DNA of 64,000 nt from Rhodospirillales bacterium (GTDB lineage: Bacteria; Pseudomonadota; Alphaproteobacteria; Reyranellales; Reyranellaceae), in NCBI GenBank assembly GCA_009377525.1, contig WHTW01000009.1, positions 1-64,000 on the forward strand, given 5' to 3'. Below are positions 6,154 through 59,057 of this stretch, in pieces (the stretch's first letter is position 1; every line of letters begins with the position of its first letter). Below the pieces are notes generated by a model, which did not search any database, was not told where the DNA came from, and was given only the letters and a program-made list of their open reading frames with translations. Both the position numbers and the translations under genes were made by a program.

Positions 6154-6268
6154 GCACATTCCGTCTGGCTGGAATCAGCCAGACGGAATGTGCCCTGTGC
6201 AACGGCCACCCCCGGCGTGCGCATTTCCGATTTGATGGAACCGCCCGCGGTTCCATCAAATCGGAAAT
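6154..6268. repeat. Two-hairpin intergenic repeat, family D, copy 1
   Basis: Two perfect or near-perfect hairpins in tandem. The first, 6154-6193, has arms starting GCACATTCCGT around GGCTGGAATCAGCC. The second, 6223-6268, has arms of more than 18 bases around TTGATGGAACCGCC. A very similar pair with the same linker CCCTGTGCAAC and the same trailing CGCTCT occurs at 51869-51983. Both copies sit between divergent genes; here these are pntAA and the hydroxyacid dehydrogenase. Confidence 0.85.
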
Positions 6269-51214: not shown

Positions 51215-51766
51215 TCAGCGCTTCGTCGGCACCATGCAGAAGCCCTGCGCCTCGATGCCGAGCGGCGGATTGAACTTGCTGCGGAAGTTCTCCATGGCGA
51301 TGGCCGCCGTCAGCTCGACGATCTGCGGCTCGGTGAAGTGCATCCTGAGCTCGGCGAAGAAGGCTTCGTCGACCTTCTGACCGGTCGTGGTGATGCGCTC
51401 GGCATATTCCAGCGCCACGCGTTCCATCGGCGAGAACAGCTTGCTGTCGCGCCAGGCGAGAACCTCGCCCAGCTTCTCGGCGCCGCCTTCATCTTCCACC
51501 GCACGGGCGGAATTGATATCGATTCAAAACGGGCAGCCGTTGATGGTGGCGACGCGGACATAGACCAGCGGCAGCAGCGCCTTGGGCAACTGACCCGACT
51601 GCTCGATCGACTGGCCGAGCAGGCCGGCGGCGCGCAGGATCGGCGGGCAATGCGCCAGGACCTTGGTGGGATTGAGCAGGCCGCCGAACATCTCGCGTTG
51701 CCTGCCGAAAATCGCCTTCAAGGTCGGATCGCCACCATCTTCTTCGATTTCGCTGACGCGGGGCAT
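51215..51766 (-). CDS. AhpD/CMD-family peroxidase-like protein with in-frame TGA (probable selenoprotein)
   Basis: A 183-codon frame read through one TGA at 51524-51526 (codon 81). Before it: MPRVSEIEEDGGDPTLKAIFGRQREMFGG to YVRVATINGCPF; after it: IDINSARAVEDEGGAEKL to FCMVPTKR, in the same frame. In the carboxymuconolactone decarboxylase/AhpD family this position is the second Cys of the redox motif C-x-x-C (NGCPFCIDINSA); here it is TGA, giving CPF-U if selenocysteine is inserted. A hairpin fitting bacterial SECIS rules starts 11 bases after the TGA. The ATG at 51766 has AAGGAG upstream. A plain nonsense mutation is the alternative. Confidence 0.72.
51491..51517 (-). promoter_or_regulatory. 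Putative bacterial SECIS hairpin
   Basis: On the minus strand the stem UUCCGCC/GGUGGAA (seven pairs, one G-U) closes a five-base loop CGUGC. AUC and GAU extend it across a two-base AA bulge. Eighteen bases separate the UGA from the loop, and a G stands at loop position 2. Known bacterial SECIS elements have a loop 16-37 bases downstream with G in the first two positions. Confidence 0.6.
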
Positions 51767-51868: not shown

Positions 51869-51983
51869 GCACATTCCGTGCGGCTGGAATCAGCCGCACG
51901 GAATGTGCCCTGTGCAACAACGATCGCCGTTGCGCGCGTTTCCGTTTGGATGGAACCGCGCGCGGTTCCATCCAAACGGAAAC
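51869..51983. repeat. Two-hairpin intergenic repeat, family D, copy 2
   Basis: Hairpins 51869-51908 (GCACATTCCGTGCGGCTGGA and complement) and 51938-51983 (GTTTCCGTTTGGATGGAACC and complement). Same linker CCCTGTGCAAC and trailing CGCTCT as the copy at 6154-6268; the stem bases differ with compensating changes. It lies between the AhpD-like gene and the MFS gene, which diverge. Confidence 0.87.
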
Positions 51984-58949: not shown

Positions 58950-59057
58950 CAAACCTCTCCCTTACAGAAGAGCTGCACTCCGGTGGGGGAGCGTGGCCCG
59001 GCGCCGTGATAGCGGCGGTCGGGCCGTCTGACAAGAGCGACAAGCTGTCCAAGTCGT

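Follow-up and report, generated by a model that had tools for sequence, protein, structure and literature searches.

The window (the whole 64,000-nucleotide stretch of DNA analysed here) lies on contig C208 of a genome from the genus Reyranella that comprises 7.35 Mb in 208 contigs. The genus, taken in the GTDB sense, was deduced from congeners whose matches share contig coordinates with Reyranella massiliensis 521 (G022, L055) and Enhydrobacter aerosaccus ATCC 27094 (G011, L058). Inspection of the minus strand reveals an AhpD-like/CMD-family gene, a candidate selenoprotein gene, at positions 51766-51215, running from an ATG at 51766-51764 to a terminal TGA at 51217-51215 and assigned on the basis of PF02627, orthologues and fold. 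When TGA is read as selenocysteine (Sec), the frame spans 183 amino acids, and its only internal TGA is codon 81 (51526-51524), which falls at the second redox position of a CPF-U motif whose first position is the invariant Cys78 (51535-51533). The residues around the TGA read INGCPF-U-IDINSAR. A preliminary description of this DNA had proposed the same 183-codon frame, interrupted only by a TGA where the family's CxxC motif has its second Cys; both points hold on the minus strand, and homologues outside the Sec lineages carry Cys there. As that description also anticipated of standard gene finders, table 11 calling divides the gene into two ORFs, one of 80 amino acids (51766-51524) and one of 94 amino acids with a GTG start (51499-51215).

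The sequence AGAAGGAG lies shortly 5' of the ATG on the minus strand, and a probable ribosome-binding site, AGAAGGAGC (51779-51771), can be read a few bases before the start codon. The vicinity of the gene showed no sigma-70-like promoter. Upstream of it lie two perfect palindromes, one at 51869-51908 with 18-nt arms and a 4-nt loop, the other at 51938-51983 with 23-nt arms and no loop; neither arm had an exact copy among the loci retrieved from other genomes. A weaker copy of the 23-nt arm, with 3 mismatches, occurs at 6246-6268 of the window, and the two are possibly a dispersed repeat.

The genes adjoining the AhpD-like gene vary among genomes, and its conserved neighbours stand kilobases off in many of them. 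Upstream is a serA-like gene, and downstream are genes for a FAD-dependent dehydrogenase and a tricarboxylate-transporter-type binding protein, all named by eye from sequence and not by family search. Judged in the same way, none of the conserved contig neighbours is a recognisable antioxidant gene, ahpC included, and no functional clue was obtained from the neighbouring genes. An Rfam scan of the window gave a single find, a serC leader (RF00517, 42.5 bits) on the minus strand at 58951-59003, just 5' of an apparent serC gene that is followed by a serA gene.

Conservation of the gene was examined at several scales. A full-length orthologue with exactly one TGA is present in 34 of 37 Reyranella genomes, the source genome included. 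The three exceptional genomes are 73-84% complete: G007 (73%) and G017 (77%) gave no match to this group, and in G027 the gene is cut at a contig edge. A codon alignment was built from 54 distinct sequences, 53 with TGA and one distant chlamydial homologue with TGC. The group's 53 distinct sequences, drawn from isolates as well as independent MAGs, share TGA at codon 81 without exception, and none has Cys in that column. A wider scan with one genome per species (84,980 species) recovered mainly Reyranella-type MAGs and isolates, where every group member covering the codon has TGA and three more distant relatives have Cys at that position. Among 398 genomes sampled evenly across the phylum, matches to the group occur only in Reyranella, and the other listed homologues lack an internal TGA, except for a paralogue in the source genome. 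Two contigs from Candidatus Rokuibacteriota MAGs also match the AhpD-like gene (L095, 5001-5401; L099, 5001-5057). The L095 copy has TGA at the same position and a gap in its middle, and it is either a transferred and damaged gene or a product of mis-binning.

The region beyond the TGA was compared with the region before it. Relative to the nearest relative (92% identity), dN/dS is 0.13 upstream of the TGA and 0.15 downstream; the median pN/pS over 1326 pairs is 0.23 upstream and 0.35 downstream. These low ratios past the TGA show that the downstream half is under constraint and is translated. The preliminary description had named decay of the downstream half in relatives sharing the TGA as the outcome that would speak against it, and had called for an orthologue alignment at codon 81; the alignment instead presents 53 distinct sequences that remain open and under purifying selection past a shared TGA. 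A pseudogene or sequencing error, where TGC or TGT had become TGA and the two halves no longer formed one protein, would fit the split made by table 11 calling but is refuted by this conservation of the TGA gene across genomes, with one TGA common to isolates and independent MAGs, a constrained downstream half and no Cys-containing group member, and it retains next to no probability.

The source genome encodes the selenocysteine machinery. A tRNA-Sec with anticodon TCA (C175:49988-50079, 72.4 bits), selB (C175:50187-52034, 455 bits) and selA (C175:52778-54091, 565 bits) all fall inside about 4 kb, and selD lies on another contig (C186:92807-93751, 373.5 bits). The absence of selABCD, which the preliminary description had treated as grounds for rejection, is thus not what the genome displays. 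The alpha subunit of formate dehydrogenase is a classic bacterial selenoprotein, and a gene for it with one in-frame TGA (C175:56943-59993, 1424.5 bits) shares the contig of selABC. An fdoGHI-selABC arrangement has been described for Alphaproteobacteria (PMC8124441). One genome of the same genus, G019 (89% complete), retains the intact TGA gene, but selA was not detected there, and neither selB nor tRNA-Sec exceeded the cut-off. This absence is most simply read as a gap in the assembly, since selA, selB and tRNA-Sec are such close neighbours in the source genome that a single gap could delete all of selABC.

Downstream of the UGA, a hairpin at 51512-51494 on the minus strand pairs 51512-51506 with 51500-51494, giving a seven-pair stem and a 5-nt CGUGC loop (51505-51501) that begins 18 nt past the UGA, just as the preliminary description had drawn it. 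The published bacterial SECIS (bSECIS) model specifies a stem of 4-16 bp, a loop of 3-9 nt that has G as its first or second base, a UGA-to-loop distance of 16-37 nt and a minimum free energy of at most -7.5 kcal/mol (PMC13188914). The hairpin falls within all of these constraints: its stem has 7 bp, the second base of its loop is G and the third U, the distance is 18 nt, and folded by itself it has an energy of -9.5 kcal/mol. Its pattern is unique within the window. When the codons for these residues are replaced at random by synonymous ones, 9.5% of trials yield all seven stem pairs, and a similar stem lies 8-25 nt downstream of about 10% of positions drawn at random from the window, so the single hairpin taken alone is weak evidence. 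In the 54-nt context, it is not the global minimum-energy fold in many orthologues.

Comparison across the family is decisive. The three inner pairs vary among AGC/GCU, GUC/GAC, GCC/GGU, GCC/GGC, GCG/CGC and UUC/GAA, with one variant, CUC/GAU, partly broken, and the loop is CGUGU or CGUGC in 51 of 53 sequences. Among 26 distinct rows, 96.2% of cells are paired and 27 cells are changed on both sides. The covariation score is 0.395 versus 0.122 +/- 0.023 for shuffled alignments, where 0 of 500 shuffles score as high, and sliding the partner strand yields 0.019-0.183. These compensatory stem changes alter residues 87 and 90 of the protein together, where only the combinations Ser/Leu, Val/Thr, Ala/Val, Ala/Ala, Leu/Met and Phe/Lys occur. 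Three codons in and around the hairpin are nearly fixed, TTT80, TCC86 and CGT88 (51/53 each), versus a usage of 17%, 7% and 10%, respectively, elsewhere in the gene. A chance hairpin is rejected by the covariation and by these fixed rare codons. A covariance model of the hairpin searched against the whole genome found the AhpD-like locus alone significant and revealed no other selenoproteins.

That the UGA is decoded, within an RNA context selected as a SECIS, is shown by comparison among relatives. Decoding could in principle proceed without Sec insertion, by reassignment of the codon or near-cognate readthrough; alternatively, each half could be translated as a subunit of its own. The former finds some favour in G019, which keeps the gene without detected selABC, but the UGA coincides precisely with the redox Cys of the family, the SECIS hairpin covaries around a conserved loop, and the full Sec system co-occurs. 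The latter could draw on the GTG start at 51499 of the source genome, but initiation there drops residue 81 and codons 82-89, which are mostly conserved. We judge these options together to be highly improbable. The preferred reading, to which we assign a probability of about 96%, is that this is a functional selenoprotein gene in which UGA81 would be recoded to Sec by means of SelB and the hairpin, giving an AhpD-like CPF-U redox protein. The machinery, the conservation past the TGA and the covarying hairpin all argue for the earlier proposal that the gene makes a CPFU protein.

Membership in the AhpD/CMD family, as first suggested from the letters alone, is backed by both Pfam and the predicted structure. 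The protein scores 45.3 bits against PF02627 (CMD family; gathering score 23). None of the Sec-aware NCBIfam models reaches its cut-off on this protein. Of all NCBIfam models, NF053654, 'YciW-related (seleno)protein', scores highest with 124.1 bits over residues 1-175 (cut-off 310, far above that score), and TIGR01926, 'peroxidase-related enzyme', comes next with 51.3 bits (cut-off 81.8). The structure is predicted with a pLDDT of 94.4 and a pTM of 0.89 and has the AhpD-like helical fold. Its closest match is D. radiodurans AhpD (6k40_B; Z 21.8 over 180 residues, rmsd 2.2), followed by 2prr and 2oyo (Z 21.4 each) and by PA0269 and Bmp8 (Z 19.6 each). PA0269 (2ijc/2o4d) and the D. radiodurans protein share the all-helical fold and the CxxC position with the Reyranella protein, which differs in having Sec for the second Cys. 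M. tuberculosis AhpD (1gu9/1knc) shares the two-helix CxxC motif (PMC3141380), although the structural match is weaker, with a Z of about 10 over 135 residues.

Alignment with PA0269 places its Cys48 and Cys51 at Cys78 and Sec81. The relay residues named for AhpD include Glu36, Tyr50 and His55 of PA0269 (PMC3141380), and these align with Pro66, Phe80 and Asn85, such that three of the five relay residues differ. Of the Glu-Cys-Cys-His proton relay of AhpD, the Reyranella protein thus keeps the redox pair, as Cys78 and Sec81, and has the Glu and His replaced. Because Pro66 and Asn85 stand in their place, the low pKa of the selenol may do the activating job of the missing relay. Asn at the His position is common to the nearest Cys homologues, so the loss of His is not specific to Sec. 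A further cysteine, Cys177 in a C-terminal QGFC, is invariant in the 15 sequences aligned.

The gene is an addition to an already known kind of selenoprotein. AhpD-like CxxU selenoproteins were reported in the 2005 Sargasso Sea survey (27 sequences, COG2128; PMC1088965) and have been listed since (PMC9312934, PMC13188914), which bears out the statement in the preliminary description that bacterial surveys contain them (PMC1088965, PMC13188914). We found no papers on selenoprotein genes in Reyranella in the open-licence literature, and subscription papers or supplements may hold some. Like the AhpD-like selenoproteins of the COG2128/YciW and TIGR01926 kind, the Reyranella protein has CxxU in a CMD domain with Sec second and a putative bSECIS just downstream, and Cys homologues are widespread in both cases. 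Unlike most of that family, it has Asn85 where His is usual, and it belongs to a separate clade that is nearly confined to Reyranella. In a tree of 56 AhpD-like proteins, all 17 sampled group members fall in one clade (99/98), and the Sec label needs three changes. The three Sec lineages are likely independent, judging from this tree, though the three changes could also represent fewer gains plus losses.

The second of these lineages is represented in the source genome by the paralogue at C162:32536-33045 (L103, 5037-5543), whose frame is interrupted by TGA at the same redox residue (NGCPF-U-QDVN), with a strong GCUGCC-GUG-GGCAGC hairpin of -10 kcal/mol after it. The hairpin covariance model gives no signal there, the hairpin being different. 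This paralogue is nearer to NF053654 (GroundWater_YciW) than the window protein is, at 237.8 versus 124.1 bits. The third lineage occurs in other Reyranella (L162, L163, L166, L168), with an in-frame TGA in VNDCYY-U-IPTHT; it keeps the family His four residues past Sec and has about 25% identity to the window gene. Some Reyranella species also have a Cys paralogue (L170, L171).

These features suggest the following mechanism. SelB carrying Sec-tRNA(Sec) would bind the hairpin 18 nt past UGA81, where dependence on SelB is taken from established knowledge. Recoding of UGA81 as Sec would yield an AhpD-like protein of 183 residues, helical throughout, whose redox centre is Cys78-Pro-Phe-Sec81. By alignment, Sec81 corresponds to Cys51 of PA0269 and hence to Cys133 of M. 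tuberculosis AhpD; it would be the attacking selenolate and would reduce a peroxide, the family default, or another electrophilic substrate. A selenenylsulfide would then form with Cys78 as the resolving residue and would be reset by a cellular thiol system.

The identity of the substrate is the point on which readings that agree on a selenoprotein diverge. A non-peroxide substrate, with the enzyme acting as a reductive dehalogenase-like protein or a thiol-disulfide oxidoreductase, is a serious contender at somewhat less than even odds. Bmp8 (6ohi/6ohj), whose PDB entries are titled debrominase, matches the Reyranella protein both in fold and, weakly, in sequence (E 2e-8); it is a Cys enzyme and shows that the AhpD-like fold can also dehalogenate. 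The absent Glu and His of the AhpD relay and the lack of recognisable antioxidant genes among the conserved contig neighbours point the same way. The closest structures, in contrast, are peroxidase-related AhpD-like proteins (Z 20-22), which score only slightly above Bmp8. A bolder reading is unlikely in our estimation: that the protein represents a genus-wide Reyranella selenoenzyme family apart from those catalogued, where Sec replaces the Glu/His relay and the substrate is not an alkyl hydroperoxide and might be a halogenated or other electrophilic compound.

For Reyranella, the preferred reading of a functional selenoprotein gene means that a conserved redox enzyme is likely to go unnoticed across the genomes of the genus, because table 11 calling splits its gene. 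The locus also offers a clear case from nature in which an RNA element within a coding region dictates protein sequence, where residues 87 and 90 take only combinations compatible with pairing. With three separate AhpD-like lineages bearing TGA at a redox position in one genus, Reyranella would be useful for the study of exchange between Cys and Sec.
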